Positions 4,362 to 41,275 of a stretch of DNA of 64,000 nucleotides are shown piece by piece. Source of the DNA: Methanocorpusculum parvum (GTDB taxonomy: Archaea; Halobacteriota; Methanomicrobia; Methanomicrobiales; Methanocorpusculaceae); NCBI GenBank assembly GCA_002287215.1, contig LMVO01000046.1, positions 1-64,000 of the forward strand, written 5' to 3'. Position numbers and translations under genes: made by a program. Each line of letters starts with the position of its first letter. Position 1 is the first letter of the stretch. The notes under the pieces are model-generated. The model worked only from the letters and a program-made list of their open reading frames with translations. It searched no databases and was not told where the DNA came from.

Positions 4362-5597
4362 ATGCTTGAACTCGTCAACACCATATTAGAGTACGGCGAT
4401 ATCTGCGATCACTGCCTTGGCCGGCTGTTCGCAAAAAAATCATTCGGACTCACCAACGAAGAGCGGGGCCGTTCCCTTCGGATAGCTCATGCCCTTGCGT
4501 ATAATATCCCCTACAAACCCTATGAAAAAGGAACCTGCTGGGTCTGCAACGACTTATTCGATACGATTCCCTACTGGGCTGAGAAAGCAGCAGCAGCCGT
4601 ACAAGGAATCGACCACGAGACATTCGTCATAGGCACCCGCGTTCCCCCGATGATGGCTGAATCAGAAGAGATGCTCTGGTCCGACCTTTCACTCGAAAAC
4701 CCCGAACCCCTCAAATCCGAGATGAACCGTGAAGTCGGAAAAGCAGTTTCCGCTCTCACCGGCAAACACGGCAATCCGAAAAATCCCGAGGTCACCATCG
4801 TTTTGAATATTGCCGACGACTGTGTCGAAGTCCAGATCGCCTCATTATACTTCTACGGCAGGTATCTGAAATATGAACGCGGGATCCCGCAGACCCACTG
4901 GGACTGCCGCGCATGCAAAGGGAGAGGATGTGAAATCTGCAGCTTTACCGGCAAACAATACCCCACATCAGTGGAAGAACTCATTGCAGAAGTCCCAAAA
5001 CAGATTTTCGAAAGTGACTGCGGGGTCCTGCACGGAGCGGGAAGAGAAGACATCGACGCAGTCATGATCGGGACCGGAAGACCCTTTGTTATGGAGATGC
5101 AGAACCCGAAAAAGCGGACATATGACATAAAAGAACTGGAAAAAGCGATAAACGAGTCTGCAAACCCCAGAGTAGGGGTCGTCCTTGAAAGCTGGTCCGA
5201 CAAAAAAACCGTGGAAATGCTTAAATCAAACAAAGGGCATAAAACATACAGGATTCTAGTCTCAATAGATGACAGTATCTCTCTGGAAACTGTTCAGAAT
5301 GCCGTATCCAAGCTCAAAGGAGCCTGGATTGATCAGCGCACGCCTGAACGGGTCTCGCACAGACGTGCAGACCTCGTTCGAAAGAGACAGGTCATTGACA
5401 TAGGAGTTCTTGGTGTGGAAAACGGCCTTTACCGGCTTGAAGTGCTCGGTGAAGGCGGCCTCTACATCAAAGAGCTCGTATCAGGAGACGGGGGTCGAAC
5501 GACCCCCAGTCTTGCTGAAATCCTCGCCGTTCCGGCTAAAGTCGTCGAATTAGACGTGGTGCAGGTCGACGGATTACCAAATATTGGAGATGAGTAA
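4362..5597 (+). CDS. pus10: tRNA pseudouridine synthase Pus10 (positions 54 and 55)
   Basis: Pus10 makes pseudouridine 54 and 55 in the T loop of archaeal tRNA. The 411-residue product has the N-terminal zinc/THUMP part with CDHCLGRLF at residues 15-23 and CWVC near residue 59, a second cysteine set CRACKGRGCEIC from residue 182, and the catalytic segment GREDIDAVMIGTGRPF near residues 226-241 with the aspartate used by pseudouridine synthases. The gene ends 2 bases before rpl21e and opens a compact translation operon with trmY upstream. Confidence 0.93.
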   Translation: MLELVNTILEYGDICDHCLGRLFAKKSFGLTNEERGRSLRIAHALAYNIPYKPYEKGTCWVCNDLFDTIPYWAEKAAAAVQGIDHETFVIGTRVPPMMAESEEMLWSDLSLENPEPLKSEMNREVGKAVSALTGKHGNPKNPEVTIVLNIADDCVEVQIASLYFYGRYLKYERGIPQTHWDCRACKGRGCEICSFTGKQYPTSVEELIAEVPKQIFESDCGVLHGAGREDIDAVMIGTGRPFVMEMQNPKKRTYDIKELEKAINESANPRVGVVLESWSDKKTVEMLKSNKGHKTYRILVSIDDSISLETVQNAVSKLKGAWIDQRTPERVSHRRADLVRKRQVIDIGVLGVENGLYRLEVLGEGGLYIKELVSGDGGRTTPSLAEILAVPAKVVELDVVQVDGLPNIGDE

Positions 5598-6899: not shown

Positions 6900-7676
6900 A
6901 TGAAAGCGCCAAAGGATCAGCATTTTCTGATTGATACAGACGCCGTAGATTTTATCGCCGGGTCGGTCCCGATCCAGGGACGAAAGGTGCTTGAAGTAGG
7001 GCCGGGCGGAGGAGTCCTGACAGCGGCTCTTCTCGAACGGGGAGCAAATGTCAGAGCGGTCGAACTGGACGGAACGCTTCTCCCAAACCTTGAACAGCGG
7101 TTCAAAGATGAACTCGCTTCAGGTCAGCTGACCATAACCCGGGGCGATGCTTCCAGAGTTGACCTCCCGGATTTTGATCTGGTGATCGCAAATCTGCCCT
7201 ACTCCATCTCATCGAAGATCACGTTCCGGCTCCTCGAAACCGGATTCGAGACAGCTGTTCTGATGTATCAGTGGGAGTTTGCAAAACGCATGGTGTCCCC
7301 GCCTGGCGACGGAGAGTACGGCAGACTTTCCGTAATGGTGCAGACCTATGCGGATGTGGAGCTCATCCTCAAACTTCCGCCCCGGGCGTTCAGCCCCCCG
7401 CCGGAAGTCGATTCAGCAGTAGTAAAGATCATCCCGCGTGAACCCCCGGTCAAAATACTGAACCGCGAGGTCCATGCAGTTCTCGTTCGCGAACTCTTCT
7501 CCCACCGGAGAAAAACCATCCAGAACGGACTCAAAGGAATGAAAAGCATCTACGGTGAAGAGATCATAACAAAACTCATCGGCAGTCTACCAAAAGATCT
7601 CACAGGCAAACGCCCCGAGAAGCTTTCTATTCTGGATTTCATTGAGCTTGCCAACCGGCTAAGTGATCTGATATAA
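6900..7676 (+). CDS. rsmA: 16S rRNA dimethyladenosine transferase KsgA
   Basis: KsgA/RsmA dimethylates two neighbouring adenines in the last helix of 16S rRNA during small-subunit assembly. The 258-residue protein has the SAM-binding loop EVGPGGGVLTAALLERG near residues 31-47 and the catalytic NLPYSIS motif near residue 98, followed by the basic C-terminal domain with FSHRRKTIQNGLKG. The stop codon of ksgA overlaps the ATG of the next methyltransferase (TAATGG), so the two are coupled. Confidence 0.96.
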   Translation: MKAPKDQHFLIDTDAVDFIAGSVPIQGRKVLEVGPGGGVLTAALLERGANVRAVELDGTLLPNLEQRFKDELASGQLTITRGDASRVDLPDFDLVIANLPYSISSKITFRLLETGFETAVLMYQWEFAKRMVSPPGDGEYGRLSVMVQTYADVELILKLPPRAFSPPPEVDSAVVKIIPREPPVKILNREVHAVLVRELFSHRRKTIQNGLKGMKSIYGEEIITKLIGSLPKDLTGKRPEKLSILDFIELANRLSDLI

Positions 7677-8683: not shown

Positions 8684-10189
8684 ATGGATAAAAAACAGGA
8701 TCTTACTCATGAAAACGGAGCGCCGGTAGCCGACAACCTGAACTCGCTCACTGCAGGACCCCGCGGACCATTGATGCTCCAGGATCTGTGGTTTCTGGAA
8801 AAACTTGCACATTTCGATCGGGAAGTCATCCCGGAAAGACGTATGCATGCAAAAGGTTCCGGAGCGTTCGGCACCTTTACCGTGACCGCTGACGTGGAAA
8901 AATACACCAAAGCAAAAGTTTTCGAGAAAGGAAAAAAGACCGAGGTCTTTGTCCGGTTTTCTACCGTGGCAGGCGAGAGGGGAGCTGCCGATGCAGAGCG
9001 CGATATCCGGGGATTTGCGATCAAATTCTATACCGAAGAAGGAAACTGGGATCTTGTCGGCAACAACACGCCGGTCTTTTTTATCAGAGACCCTCTGCAG
9101 TTTCCCGATCTGAACCATGCCGTAAAACGTGATCCTAAAACGAACATGCGTTCCGCGCAGAACAACTGGGACTTCTGGACCTCGCTTCCGGAAGCGCTCC
9201 ATCAGGTAACGATCGTCATGTCTGATCGGGGGATCCCGGCAAGTTACCGGCACATGCACGGGTTTGGCAGCCATACCTACAGTCTGATCAATGCCGAAGG
9301 GAAGCGGGTATGGGTCAAGTATCATTTCAAGACCCAGCAGGGGATCAAAAATATCACCGACCAGGAAGCGGAAATCCTCGTAGGCAAAGACCGGGAAAGT
9401 AATCAGAGGGATCTCTTTGAAGCGATCGAACGAAAAGAGTTCCCGAGATGGAAGATGTACTTCCAGATCATGACAGAAGAGGAGGCGAGAGTCAGAAAAG
9501 AAAATCCGTTCGACATCTCCAAAGTCTGGAGTCACAAAGAGTATCCGATGATAGAAGTCGGTGTGCTTGAACTGAACAGAAATCCGGAGAACTACTTTGC
9601 CGATGTGGAGCAGGCGGCGTTCAATCCGGCAAACATCGTTCCGGGAGTCGGCCTTTCGCCGGATAAACTCCTGCAGGGCAGACTGTTTTCCTACGGCGAT
9701 GCGCAGCGTTACCGGTTAGGCGTGAATCATTCGCTGATCCCGGTCAACCGTCCGAAAGTCGACGTCCATGCATTCCATCGGGACGGACTTATGCGGGTGG
9801 ATGGAAACTACGGAGCTGCCAAAGGGTATGTGCCAAACAGTTATGATGAGTGGAAACAGCAGGAGGCATACCGTGACCCGTCGCTGAAACTTTCCGGGGA
9901 TATGGACAGGTATGAACAAAAAGATGATGAGAATGACGACTGTTTCTACCAGCCGGGCGATCTGTACCGTCTGATGACGGAGGATAAAAAACAGGTCCTG
10001 ATCGAAAACACCGCACGAAACATGGAGGGCGTAACGGAGAACATCAAATACCGACACGCAGCCCACTGTTATCTTGCAGATCCGGATTACGGGACGAGGT
10101 TTGCAAAACTCTGCGGTCTTGATCTGAATAAAGTTGTCTCCCTCTCAAAAATGAGCCATGCGGAGAGGATGGAAAATACAAAAAGGTAG
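8684..10189 (+). CDS. katA: Monofunctional heme catalase
   Basis: Catalase splits hydrogen peroxide into water and oxygen. The 501-residue protein is of the small-subunit type and complete. His55 lies in [13 protein letters not shown], the distal asparagine in [12 protein letters not shown], and the heme-ligating tyrosine 337 in [14 protein letters not shown]. It ends in TAG at 10187-10189, so UAG is a true stop in this genome. In a strict anaerobe it serves oxygen defence. A TATA-like ACTTTTTAT precedes it near 8650, suggesting its own promoter. Confidence 0.97.
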
Positions 10190-35870: not shown

Positions 35871-36245
35871 TTACTCTGCGGTTTCCTTTTTCGGCCGCTC
35901 GGGTTTCACATACGTGATCTCGTAGGTCTCGACGCTGCGCTGCGCTGGAGTCGCCGACTTCGCGTACTCCCGCTCCATCAAAAGAGCGTCGAACTTACAC
36001 ACATCAACACAGTTCCCGCACATAACGCAGCGGAACCGGTCGAGTGTCCAGATCTTCTCAGCCCGCTGAACGGTGATCGCCTGTGAAGGACACCTTTTCA
36101 TACACATCATGCATGACGTGCACTTCGCCGGATCGAAAACCAGATGACCCCGGGTCCCCTCGAAGTTCTCCAGAGGCACATACGGGAACATCGTCGTCGC
36201 CGGCTTGTTGAGGAACTGTTTCAGGATCGTTTTAAGCATCTTCAT
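35871..36245 (-). CDS. echF: Ech hydrogenase ferredoxin subunit EchF
   Basis: EchF is the two-[4Fe-4S] electron carrier of the membrane-bound Ech hydrogenase. 124 residues with CTSCMMCMKRCPSQAI near residues 42-57 and CVMCGNCVDVCKFDAL near 73-88, both full motifs. The stop is at 35871-35873; a T-run follows on the minus strand. It is last in echABCDEF, 6 bases after echE. Confidence 0.92.
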   Translation of the reverse strand: MKMLKTILKQFLNKPATTMFPYVPLENFEGTRGHLVFDPAKCTSCMMCMKRCPSQAITVQRAEKIWTLDRFRCVMCGNCVDVCKFDALLMEREYAKSATPAQRSVETYEITYVKPERPKKETAE

Positions 36246-36251
36246 GACAGT

Positions 36252-37334
36252 TCACCTCTCCATACAGCCGATACACGGATCGATCGTCAACACGATCTGT
36301 GGAACATCGGCAAGCTCGCAGCCTGCAAGGATCGACACCAGAGGCGGGATATTCGTCAGGGTCGGCGTTCTCACCCGGAACTGTGCAAGATGCTTGGTTC
36401 CATTCCCTTTCAGATAATGGATGACCTCGCCCCTCGGCTGCTCGGAGCGGCTGAAGTATTCGCCGTCGGGATTACCCTTCACAGGAGTGAAAACATCTCC
36501 TTCCGGCATATCGGTGATCACCCGGCGGATGATCTCCACCGACTGGAACAACTCCTTACACCTCACCGCACAGCGGGCATATCCGTCGCCGCCTTTCTCA
36601 ACGACCGGTTTGAACCCGATATCGCCGTACGCGAGATAGCCGGTAGAACGGGCATCCAGATCAAGACCGCTGCCCCGCGCCGTCGGGCCGGCAGCTCCGA
36701 GATAATAGGCATCCTCTTTTGAGAGAACGCCTTTGCCGACCAGACGTTTGGTCAGCGTGTAATCATTCAGGAACACGTTCGTAAGATCCTTCATCTCATC
36801 CTCGATCTCGTCGAGCCGGTCATCCATATCCGAAAGGAAGGAGTTTGCGACATCACGCCGGACACCGCCTACTTTGCAGACCCCCTGGATCACCCGGCCG
36901 CCCGTCGTTGCCTCCATCTCATCAAGGATCGATTCGCGGATCTTCCATGCCTGATAGAACAGGCTCTCGAACCCGAGCGAGTCGGCAAACAAGCCGAGCC
37001 ACAGAAGATGACTGTGGAGACGCGAGTACTCGCCCCACATCGTCCGAAGATACGTCGCCCGCTACGGGACCTGGATACCCATCAGCCCTTCTATCCCCTG
37101 GCAAAAGGTCGAGGAGTGCGTGAAACTGCAGATACCGCAGATACGCTCCGCGAGAAACACAAAATCCTGATAATCGCGGCGGTCCACCAGGCTCTCGAGA
37201 CCGCGGTGAACATACCCGATCGACGGGATCGCCGAAACGACACGCTCGTCTTCCACGACCAGATCCAGATGGATCGGCTCGGGAAGCACGGGGTGCTGGG
37301 GTCCGAACGGAATGATCGTCTGTCTGCCGGTCAT
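36252..37334 (-). pseudogene. echE: Ech hydrogenase large subunit EchE with an in-frame TAG
   Basis: The NiFe large subunit in one continuous frame of 360 codons plus stop, except for TAG at 37062-37064 (codon 91). The first 90 residues hold the N-terminal CXXC (AERICGICSF near residue 67); after the stop codon the frame goes on with RATYLRTMWGEYSRLHSH, as expected for EchE, and ends in DPCIGCMER with the second CXXC. Neither half alone can bind the NiFe site. GAG or CAG to TAG is one base. It could be a natural mutation, a sequence error, read-through, or two polypeptides with restart at ATG 37040. katA and others end in TAG, so UAG also stops normally. Confidence 0.85.
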
Positions 37335-37714
37335 TCTTTCGCCTCCTTAACGACGGTCACCGTAGGAGCAGGCTGCTCCTTCTTTTTGAACGGATACGGA
37401 ACGGATGTTTTGATGAACGTTCCGCCGAAATCGAGAGACATCCCTTCAAACGTAAATCCATACAAATCATGGATCTCGTTTTCATACACGAATGCCCCGC
37501 CGTAGGATGACCCGATCGACGGGATCGTCGTCCCTTCAGAAACGGCGATGCGGTAATGCCGGAGATCCGTCTCCTTTTCGAACGAGTAGGTGATATAGTA
37601 GCCTTCGTCGGCCGGCGTGCAGGTCATCACAACCAGCCGGTATCCGCCGTTTCTCATCGTGCCGGCGGTTTTCTGCACATCAGCAACTTCAATGGAATCG
37701 ATCTTCATATTCAT
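37331..37714 (-). CDS. echD: Ech hydrogenase subunit EchD
   Basis: A 127-residue subunit related to the complex I 30-kDa protein (NuoC-like). The segment GGAFVYENEIHDLYGFTFEGM is the family signature. It overlaps echE and echC by 4 bases each, so it is translated in coupled fashion. Start MNMKIDSIEVADVQKTAG. Confidence 0.88.
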   Translation of the reverse strand: MNMKIDSIEVADVQKTAGTMRNGGYRLVVMTCTPADEGYYITYSFEKETDLRHYRIAVSEGTTIPSIGSSYGGAFVYENEIHDLYGFTFEGMSLDFGGTFIKTSVPYPFKKKEQPAPTVTVVKEAKE

Positions 37715-38145
37715 TTTTTTGCCTCCATAGCTGCCCGTTTTTCTTCCAGAACGCCAAGCGCCTTCACGATTCCCTCAATGAGCGCCTCGGGACGAACGGA
37801 ACATCCGGGCACATACACGTCCACCGGGATGATCGTATCGACGCCGCCTGAGATATTGTAACACTCACGGAAAACACCGCCGCTCGATGCGCAGATTCCG
37901 ACCGCGACCACGACCTTCGGTTCAGGGATCTGGTCGTAGATGTTTTTCAGAACCGCTTTGTTCTGTTCATTCACCCCGCCGGTCACCACAAAGATGTCGG
38001 CGTGAGCCGGGTTTCCGGTATTGATGATACCAAACCGCTCGACGTCGTAGACTGGAGTCAGGGCGGCGAGTATCTCGATATCGCATCCATTACAGCTGGA
38101 TGCATTGTAATGGAGAAGCCAGGGGGATTTTGATGCCGAACTCAT
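37711..38145 (-). CDS. echC: Ech hydrogenase small subunit EchC
   Basis: The NiFe small subunit (NuoB-like), 144 residues, holding the proximal [4Fe-4S] cluster. CNGCDIEIL near residue 19 and the later cysteines in VGICASSGGVF and VPGCSVRPEAL supply the four ligands. The frame is open to 38214, but the start MSSASKSPWLLHYNASSC is preferred; it shares a base with the echB stop. Confidence 0.93.
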   Translation of the reverse strand: MSSASKSPWLLHYNASSCNGCDIEILAALTPVYDVERFGIINTGNPAHADIFVVTGGVNEQNKAVLKNIYDQIPEPKVVVAVGICASSGGVFRECYNISGGVDTIIPVDVYVPGCSVRPEALIEGIVKALGVLEEKRAAMEAKK

Positions 38146-39011
38146 TATACTATACCTCCAAGGATGCCAAGAACGACAATGTTTCCTACTCCAAAGACGA
38201 GAGTGACGATCCACAGACTCTTGACCGTCATCTTCCAGGTCACACGCGGGAAGATATTGTCGATGACGATTTCCAGAAGGAACACGAGAATGATCGCTAC
38301 TGCGGAAAGTACTGGATACCCGGCAAAGAAGAGGAGGATCATGGAAAGGAAGATCATCATCTCATACCAGTGGGCGATCTCCACCTTGGCAAGACTTCTG
38401 CCCGAAAGGGAGGAGGTCACACCTTTGACCAGTTCCTGATGGGCGTGATGGGATGTCGAGATATCAAACGGCGATTTTCTGAGTTTGAGGGTCAAAACAG
38501 CGATGAATACTATGAACACACCAGGCAGGTAGATGATTCCCGGCACATCCAGAATGAGCATATGATAGGTATCGAAACTGCCGGTTACCAAGAAGCATCC
38601 TGCAGCGAACAGGATCAGGATCGGTTCGAGGATCATGACGCTGAGAAGTTCACGTTCCGCACCGATATGAGCATAGGGAGCGTTAGCCGAATATGCTGCA
38701 AGGATCAGGAAGGTGTGGGCGAGCGCGAGCGAGAAGAACACAAACAGCAGATTGCCTCCGGTAGCAAGCATCGCTCCGGAGAATGCGATCAGGATCAGAT
38801 ATGCCGTGGTGAAGATGATCTCCACAGGATTGGAGAACGCTTTTTCCTTATGCCAGAGTTTGGCCACATCGTAAAACGGCTGAAGAAGCGGCGGACCGAC
38901 TCTTGACTGGAAACGGGCAGTTAACACGCGGTCGCATCCGGTAAGGAGTCCGCCGAGGATCGGAGCGAGGATCAAAAATAATACTGCCCCTACAATAAAC
39001 ATTATATCCAT
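38145..39011 (-). CDS. echB: Ech hydrogenase membrane subunit EchB
   Basis: The NuoH-like membrane protein of Ech, 288 residues, start MDIMFIVGAVLFLILAPILG at 39011. It has eight or so spans; the quinone-site-like GCDRVLTARFQSRVGPPLLQP loop near residue 25 and the KLRKSPFDISTSHHAHQELV segment near 190 are family marks. It overlaps echA by 10 bases. Confidence 0.92.
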   Translation of the reverse strand: MDIMFIVGAVLFLILAPILGGLLTGCDRVLTARFQSRVGPPLLQPFYDVAKLWHKEKAFSNPVEIIFTTAYLILIAFSGAMLATGGNLLFVFFSLALAHTFLILAAYSANAPYAHIGAERELLSVMILEPILILFAAGCFLVTGSFDTYHMLILDVPGIIYLPGVFIVFIAVLTLKLRKSPFDISTSHHAHQELVKGVTSSLSGRSLAKVEIAHWYEMMIFLSMILLFFAGYPVLSAVAIILVFLLEIVIDNIFPRVTWKMTVKSLWIVTLVFGVGNIVVLGILGGIV

Positions 39012-40948
39012 ATCATCACCCCCATAAATCCGAGAACAAGCATCACGATGATCAGAACTCCCGAGATGACCCATGAGGGTTTGAGAAGGGCCTTTTCACC
39101 GCAGTACTCTTCAAGATAGTAGTTCGAGGTCTTTGCCTCTTTATAGACGCCGAGAGAACCAAGGAACCTGCCTTCGCTGTCAACAGCGCGGCCTCCAAGA
39201 TACGGAGCGATCGTCCGTCCTTCCCGGGAACCAAGGAAAGCACCGATCACGAGGAACAGCAGGATGAAAGCCATAAGACCGAGCATGACCAGGGTATCGA
39301 AGTAGAAGAATCCCTTATTGCCCAGATAGAAGTACGGACGGATCCCGTTAAGGTAGGGGATGATCACTCCCGTTATGATCGCCGGGAACCCGAGACAGCA
39401 TACGATCACCAAAACACCCATAACGATCACCGAGAGCTTCTCGGATATATGGAGGGCGATCTTTTCTGCAGGCGGTCTGTTCATTCTCATGAACAGTTTG
39501 CCGAGCCATTTTGTCCAGAAGAAGATGGTAAAGGCACTGCCGAATGCAAGGATCGCGATGAACACGCATCCGAGCGGAGCGGTCAGGAAAGCTTCCAGGG
39601 CCGCCCATTTGGAAATGAGCATACCAAAGGGTGCAAGGTACATCCCGGAGATACCGATGACCATCATTGTGGCAAGAAGCGGGAGACGGACCAGAAGTCC
39701 GTCCATATCTTCAATGTCCCGGCTCCCGATCTTGTGTTCGACTGCACCGACACAGAGGAAGAGAAGCGCCTTGGCGACCGCATGGAAGATGATCAGGAGG
39801 ATAGCCGCTTCAATAGCCTCGGCCGTTCCTATTCCGGCACACGCAGTGATAAGACCAAGGTTCGCGATCGTTGAATAGGCGAGAACTTTCTTCGCATTGC
39901 TCTGCGAGATCGCGAGGGCCGAGGTCGCAAGGAAGGTGAATGCCCCTATCAGAGCAAGGAAGATCCCCACCCATGTCTGCGAAAACAGCGGGGCGAAGAG
40001 CACCAGAAGATACACGCCGGCCTTGACCATCGTGCTGGAATGCAGCAGAGCGGATACCGGGGTCGGGGCGACCATTGCTCCTGTGAGCCAGGTCGAAAAC
40101 GGCATCTGGGCAGCCTTCGTCAATCCGGCCACCGCGATGAATGCCAGCGGGATCGTCAGAGCGGAGACGTTCGGGAAGGCGAGCAGATCGGTTACCGAGA
40201 GCAGATTCACCGGCGTATTGATGCGAAGCAAAAAGAATATCGCAAGGGTGAAACAGATCCCGCCGATCAGATTCATCCACACAGCACGAAACGCATTTTT
40301 CACTGCTTCAGGGGTCCGTGAGTATCCTATCAGAAGGAAGGAACACAGCGTTGTGACTTCCCACGCACAAAGTATCCACATAAGATTATTGAACAGAACC
40401 AGTCCGAACATCGCCGAGAGGAAGAGGAACATCAAAGCGAAGAAGTAGCGTTTGCGTACCGGAACGCCGATCTGATGATCATGATAATCCTTCATATAGC
40501 CCAGAGCATAGACACAGATCAGTGTGCCGATGATGCCGATGATGAGGACCATCACAGCTGAGAGGCCGGTGACCGTGAACGTGGTCATCGCATGAGGGCC
40601 GGCAATGCCGAAGAGCTCGAGGATCAGAATAAGGATCAGCTGGACAACCGAAAGAAGAAGCGGAAGTATTTTCCGGTATTTGATCGAAAGGCCCAGAATA
40701 ACGAGAGCTACACCGATTTCAGCGATGAATAACAGCATCCCGATCCATTCAGTATGTTCGAGGGTCAAAGATACGGGAGCAAGCAATGCTTTCCATGCCA
40801 GAAAGACGGATGCGCCGATAATAATGACCGAGGTTATGCCTGCGAGGATATTGCGGACAAGATCCGGTTTGAAGACCGCTAAAAGAACAGCGGCAGAAAC
40901 AGGGACAAGCAGCAATATCAGTATGGCAATGAGTTCCGGCGGGTACAT
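39002..40948 (-). CDS. echA: Ech hydrogenase proton-pumping subunit EchA
   Basis: The NuoL-like antiporter subunit that moves ions across the membrane. About 648 residues from MYPPELIAILILLL. Many membrane spans; the channel lysines lie in LTKAAQMPFSTWLTGAM and KVLAYSTIANLGLI, and a long amphipathic C-terminal helix follows. The open frame starts at 40993, but the membrane-type start at 40948 is more like the family. It is first in the ech operon. Confidence 0.92.
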   Translation of the reverse strand: MYPPELIAILILLLVPVSAAVLLAVFKPDLVRNILAGITSVIIIGASVFLAWKALLAPVSLTLEHTEWIGMLLFIAEIGVALVILGLSIKYRKILPLLLSVVQLILILILELFGIAGPHAMTTFTVTGLSAVMVLIIGIIGTLICVYALGYMKDYHDHQIGVPVRKRYFFALMFLFLSAMFGLVLFNNLMWILCAWEVTTLCSFLLIGYSRTPEAVKNAFRAVWMNLIGGICFTLAIFFLLRINTPVNLLSVTDLLAFPNVSALTIPLAFIAVAGLTKAAQMPFSTWLTGAMVAPTPVSALLHSSTMVKAGVYLLVLFAPLFSQTWVGIFLALIGAFTFLATSALAISQSNAKKVLAYSTIANLGLITACAGIGTAEAIEAAILLIIFHAVAKALLFLCVGAVEHKIGSRDIEDMDGLLVRLPLLATMMVIGISGMYLAPFGMLISKWAALEAFLTAPLGCVFIAILAFGSAFTIFFWTKWLGKLFMRMNRPPAEKIALHISEKLSVIVMGVLVIVCCLGFPAIITGVIIPYLNGIRPYFYLGNKGFFYFDTLVMLGLMAFILLFLVIGAFLGSREGRTIAPYLGGRAVDSEGRFLGSLGVYKEAKTSNYYLEEYCGEKALLKPSWVISGVLIIVMLVLGFMGVMIWI

Positions 40949-41275
40949 AGATATCACTTGTTGAAAGTATTGACATTCATCATTATTAATCATTCTAATG
41001 AACCCCGGGAGAATACGAGTATTTTTGGCCGGGATGAAAAATGCGGCCGGAAATGATCCGATACATATCAGGGATCCAGGCAGGATCCAAAAGAAAATCC
41101 ATTTGTCTCTCTATGATAAGAACAAAAAAATACCTGGCTATTCTCCAGATTACTAGAGATTATTGCCGGATAAATTACCGGAAGGGGATAGGAATCTCTG
41201 AAATCCTGCAGGAAGACATCGCCGGCCGGCAGATACAGCGCGCCCGCAGTAAAAAGCTGAAAAAAAAGAAAAAAA
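40949..41275. other. Intergenic region between DUF35 gene and ech operon
   Basis: No gene is seen in 327 bases. The left edge holds the T-tract end of the DUF35 transcript and the right edge the ech promoter region with GATTAATAATGATG near 40981-40994. No repeat or clear RNA is recognised between. Confidence 0.4.
41260..41275 (-). terminator. T-rich terminator after the DUF35 gene
   Basis: On the minus strand the stop codon is followed by T7-C-T8 within 20 bases, a strong archaeal T-tract terminator for the mevalonate-start operon. Confidence 0.7.

Follow-up and report, generated by a model that had tools for sequence, protein, structure and literature searches.

The window, a 64,000-nucleotide stretch of one Methanocorpusculum parvum contig, carries six adjacent genes, echA-F, on the minus strand, whose products fall into complex-I-like Pfam families as expected. 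All but echE are open. In echE, the predicted [NiFe] hydrogenase large subunit gene, the minus-strand triplet 37064-37062, read directly from the sequence, is an in-frame TAG at codon 91. The features are:

39002..40993, minus strand: echA, open gene for an antiporter-like membrane subunit, its precise start being uncertain (Pfam)
38145..39074, minus strand: echB, open gene for an NADHdh (NuoH-like) membrane subunit, probably starting near 39008 (Pfam)
37711..38145, minus strand: echC, NuoB-like small subunit, open, start taken at the ATG at 38145, the mechanical ORF extending to 38214 (Pfam, NCBIfam)
37331..37714, minus strand: echD, NuoC-like subunit, open (Pfam)
36252..37334, minus strand: echE, the interrupted gene for the [NiFe] hydrogenase large subunit (96% identical in amino acids to its open counterpart in G009, a relative in the genus)
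37062..37334, minus strand: EchE N-terminal piece, 90 residues, with the first CxxC (66/69)
37062..37064, minus strand: in-frame TAG, echE codon 91, ancestral codon most likely CAG (CAG in G009 and G023)
36252..37040, minus strand: open frame for the C-terminal part of EchE, beginning at Met99 and 262 residues long, with the second CxxC
35871..36245, minus strand: echF, [4Fe-4S] ferredoxin-like subunit, open (Pfam)

With the TAG read through, echE is a single frame of 360 residues followed by its normal stop, in agreement with the initial annotation, which had described an otherwise complete EchE split in one frame with both cysteine ligand pairs intact. The pairs were found at 66/69 and 354/357, but they lie on two separate open frames, and because of the TAG the roughly 360 residues are not encoded as a single chain. 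An AAGGAGG motif precedes the ATG of the N-terminal piece, which is echE's own start; unlike this start, Met99 of the C-terminal frame showed no clear ribosome-binding site upstream on inspection.

Because NCBIfam returned no curated Ech-specific match, the name Ech rests on the make-up of the cluster and on usage in the literature. The NCBIfam models matched by the ech genes are complex-I, F420 or other hydrogenase models, none of them an Ech-specific model that fits, and among the matches listed only the NuoB subfamily match of echC exceeds its cut-off. Six genes, both CxxC pairs and complex-I-like subunits are likewise features of EchABCDEF, the Ech hydrogenase of Methanosarcina barkeri, and of the Ech-like operons in Methanomicrobiales, a likeness drawn from organisation rather than from the M. 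barkeri sequence itself; in M. parvum, in contrast, the large-subunit gene is interrupted by TAG. By sequence, the best solved relative of the EchE profile of the genus is 6cfw chain L (E 1.9e-82), which we take to be Mbh of Pyrococcus furiosus. The P. furiosus enzyme is a different group 4 hydrogenase, and M. parvum has its own Mbh-type large subunit, which is open. Ech A-F are listed for M. parvum in Table 3 of PMC5563889, and PMC2686161 gives Mlab_1619-1624 as an Ech-like operon encoding six subunits.

Within the genus, 25 genomes including that of M. parvum (G000) were searched, and all 25 have echE. Codon 91 is covered in 24, since in G021 a contig end cuts off everything before residue 121. 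A sense codon occupies this position in 23 of the 24 genomes (Glu in 6, Asp in 5, Gln in 4, Ala in 4, Pro in 3 and Gly in 1), and TAG occurs in M. parvum only. The initial annotation had expected Glu, Asp or a similar residue, which fits the first two groups but is too narrow, as Gln, Ala, Pro and Gly also occur. Comparison with relatives, which it had proposed as a check, showed that the stop is not shared: codon 91 is CAG (Gln) in the nearest echE, that of G009 (96% identical in amino acids, 93.4% in bases), and also in G023 (94%), and it is CCC (Pro) in G020, which is as close as G009 (96%). Given the CAG of G009, TAG is a single C-to-T step away, and the C at the first position of the codon in G009, G020, G023, G005 and G010 places this step on the M. 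parvum branch (Q91*). The three nearest genes, those of G009, G020 and G023, align without gaps, so an insertion or rearrangement in echE was rejected.

Between M. parvum and G009, dN/dS of echE is 0.070, indicating purifying selection until lately. On the M. parvum branch 17 changes are synonymous and 5, among them the stop, are non-synonymous; these are too few for dN/dS to show decay after the break. Three replacements lie beyond the stop, all conservative (I228V, R260K and N315H); such few, conservative changes in an open C-terminal frame would also fit continued translation.

The TAG could stem from a mixed culture, or from a faulty base call or assembly, in which case codon 91 would in truth be CAG and Ech intact. 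A single base separates it from the codon of the nearest relative, and the genome is a 47-contig draft. Against this, the published coverage of the matching M. parvum XII assembly is 213x, so that an error at this base is unlikely, and no further break was found among the conserved genes of the window, 49 of 50 being full length with echE as the sole exception. By a second method, 57 of 59 window ORFs were open relative to G009, one was absent and echE was stopped. Relative to G023, 54 of 64 ORFs were open and three absent, with echE and six others flagged; relative to G005, two of 50 were absent, four were flagged and the other 44 were open. These ten other ORFs are flagged in G009 too, which points to differences in start sites, to paralogues or to shadow frames. 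The ABC-transporter genes of M. parvum were also without stops among the matches listed. The coverage figure is tied to this genome by a table in PMC10035134, where M. parvum XII has 47 contigs, 1.71 Mb, 213x coverage and completeness 98.21; the assembly analysed here has 47 contigs, 1,709,133 bases and completeness 95.07, with contig C1 at 237,469 bases. In the part of PMC5563889 available, the M. parvum genome is given 17 scaffolds over 1000 bp, an N50 of 116 kb, a largest scaffold of 255 kb and 213x, figures that, apart from the coverage, misfit the 47-contig assembly. PMC10035134 also assigns M. bavaricum SZSXXZ to the GTDB species of M. parvum. We regard a base error as improbable.

Several methanogen proteins, MtmB, MtbB and MttB, contain pyrrolysine encoded by UAG and thus likewise have an in-frame UAG in their genes. 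M. parvum differs in using TAG as an ordinary stop, and UAG at codon 91 is not conserved in relatives. The initial annotation had suggested a search for the pyl genes, and none of those tested exceeded its cut-off: in the M. parvum genome, PylS reached 36.3 bits (cut-off 178.15) and PylC 28.3 bits (cut-off 248.3), and PylD gave no match whatever. Across the genus, PylD was above its cut-off in none of the 25 genomes, with weak matches in 16 of them (best 31.6 bits, cut-off 150.05). The M. parvum genome also gave no match to MtmB. None of its 45 tRNA matches has the anticodon CUA; 44 were named by ARAGORN, and the 45th bears an intron and has G at position 34. Since tRNA-Trp was not seen and the assembly is about 95% complete, this tRNA list is incomplete and could have missed a tRNA. 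TAG terminates 8 of the 61 conserved ORFs in the window when the short echE piece is counted, and 7 of 60 without it; one of these ORFs is the 501-residue catalase gene katA (8684-10189), whose TAG stop had already been cited as a reason to doubt a general recoding of UAG. That doubt was borne out, and pyrrolysine or general UAG recoding was rejected from the PylS, PylC, PylD and MtmB searches, the tRNAs and stop-codon usage.

Leaky readthrough of UAG, for instance by a near-cognate tRNA-Gln, would be another way to obtain enough full-length EchE. Codon 91 is variable and tolerates many residues, Gln would restore the ancestral protein, and a tRNA-Gln with anticodon CTG is present (L075). The frame downstream of the stop is open, but a recent break would leave it open anyway. 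A structure model of a relative's EchE (L105, UBA425; mean pLDDT 81.8, about 94 at residues 91-100 and under 50 at 61-65) places residue 91 at the start of a long predicted helix, 91-119, after a loop. Neither a CUA tRNA nor Pyl genes were found, however, and a readthrough-promoting RNA fold was rejected, the RNA around and after the stop being not unusually stable (z -1.60, with 15 of 200 shuffles equally good). Readthrough sufficient to sustain the enzyme therefore appears very unlikely. Assembly of two separately made pieces into a split large subunit, for which an ATG at codon 99 closely after the stop and a cut at a predicted helix boundary could speak, is hardly credible, as a ribosome-binding site is not evident before Met99, residues 91-98 would be missing although Arg92 and Arg97 are invariant in 28 aligned sequences, the Met99 piece would begin inside the modelled helix, and no split EchE occurs among the 114 scorable genomes outside the genus. 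That one or other of these routes gives a working Ech without pyrrolysine machinery, the cell putting up with a newly arisen stop in a catalytic subunit, seems a slim prospect.

The reading that we consider very probable, on the evidence of the sequences compared, is a real and recent C-to-T nonsense mutation that ends EchE after 90 residues and leaves Ech off. In this strain CAG (Gln91) would have become TAG, and the 90-residue product, which lacks the second Ni-Fe cysteine pair and most of the protein, would provide no active large subunit beyond trace readthrough, so that the Ech hydrogenase would be off. The Mbh- and Eha-type clusters may then carry the ferredoxin and ion-gradient work. 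Their long ORFs, including the large subunits, match at full length in both G000 and G005, and the short or overlapping ORFs flagged in these stretches look like shadow frames; the names Mbh and Eha follow large-subunit similarity and published usage rather than family scans. Among the four options in the initial annotation (a very recent change, assembly of the two parts, readthrough and a base error), the first is the best supported, with CAG in G009, dN/dS of 0.070 and an operon otherwise free of lesions; the annotation had not foreseen that relatives have further breaks in this operon.

Such breaks were found in other genomes of the genus. In G005, which we take to be M. labreanum Z, echE has lost four bases near codon 151, and with them the codon for Cys153 (L042, G005:C1:1641000-1657000, near 6951), a residue invariant in 8 EchE sequences of the genus. 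The same gene is thus broken as in M. parvum, by deletion rather than by nonsense, and since this is a separate event, Ech seems dispensable in M. parvum. The other five ech genes of G005 are open, and the deletion is the only frameshift called in its 66 kb. Apart from echE, 43 of 59 ORFs were open in the comparison of G005 with G009, with 13 absent, 1 cut by the stretch end and 1 with stops, the last at about 70% identity; with G023, 44 of 60 were open, 14 absent and 1 cut; and with the window, where the additional case is an echE piece, 45 of 65 were open, 16 absent, 1 cut and 2 with stops. G002, a 70%-complete draft, has one-base deletions in echA and echE (L044, G002:C155:1-9000, near 4902 and 1337). 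A one-base deletion in echF of G023 (L041, near 9767) was not placed among the firm lesions, since frameshifts also affect three further conserved genes in its 66 kb, and is perhaps a sequence error. All six ech genes are covered in 21 genomes of the genus, with a lesion in four (G000, G002, G005 and G023) and open genes in 17; in G015, G016, G018 and G021, which fall outside the 21, the ech genes are incomplete within contigs. M. petauri MG (G007, L106) is one species whose echE is open. A plasmid search with echE gave no match.

The order-wide survey covered 159 genomes at least 85% complete, taking the best match at E <= 1e-130 as EchE, with rows counted by hand from a listing complete for all EchE rows. 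EchE was found in 128 genomes and was absent from 31, among them all 8 of the family's other genus, g2. The 128 genes comprise 125 open ones, the TAG-interrupted gene of G000, the frameshifted gene of G005 and that of G156, which is cut by a contig end and was rejected as a break; in G018 the open frame of EchE extends as far as residue 352, where a contig end is close. Outside the genus, echE was open in all 114 scorable genomes that have it. Breaks were thus seen in 2 of 13 Methanocorpusculum genomes against 0 of 114 others (p = 0.0097, counts by eye), and the same test gave p = 0.095 when the M. parvum genome, chosen for its break, was left out. Within the genus, 3 of 24 echE genes were broken compared with 1 of 39 Mbh-type and Eha-type large subunits (p = 0.15), a count that excludes the contig-cut echE of G021, the fragments G014:C15 and G003:C3 and FrhA-like matches. 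The excess of echE breaks in Methanocorpusculum is therefore suggestive only. The one broken Mbh-type gene in this count is that of G016 (G016:C167:5718-6827, L046), which was matched in three pieces.

The echE event is ordinary in kind; it affects a gene credited as present, and a close relative carries a different break. PMC3035222, in the part available, credits M. labreanum with Ech, labels broken genes as pseudogenes (26 in all) and proposes Mbh or Ech for coupling to heterodisulfide reduction. The words Ech, Mbh and pseudogene are absent from PMC10035134 in its available part, and echE lesions are not named in titles or abstract beginnings among the literature matches listed. Judged from the genes, the Ech credited to M. 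parvum and to G005 is probably not working in either. If both strains indeed lack an active EchE, Ech would be removed from the schemes of PMC5563889 and PMC3035222, and the candidates for ferredoxin reduction in Methanomicrobiales without MvhAG would narrow to Mbh, Eha and Frh-type enzymes. Both strains would then be natural Ech mutants, usable for testing the question of ferredoxin reduction.

Across window positions 36252-39074, adjacent ech genes have very unequal dS relative to G009, 0.009 in echB against 0.254 in echE, as if recombination had swapped patches of the operon.
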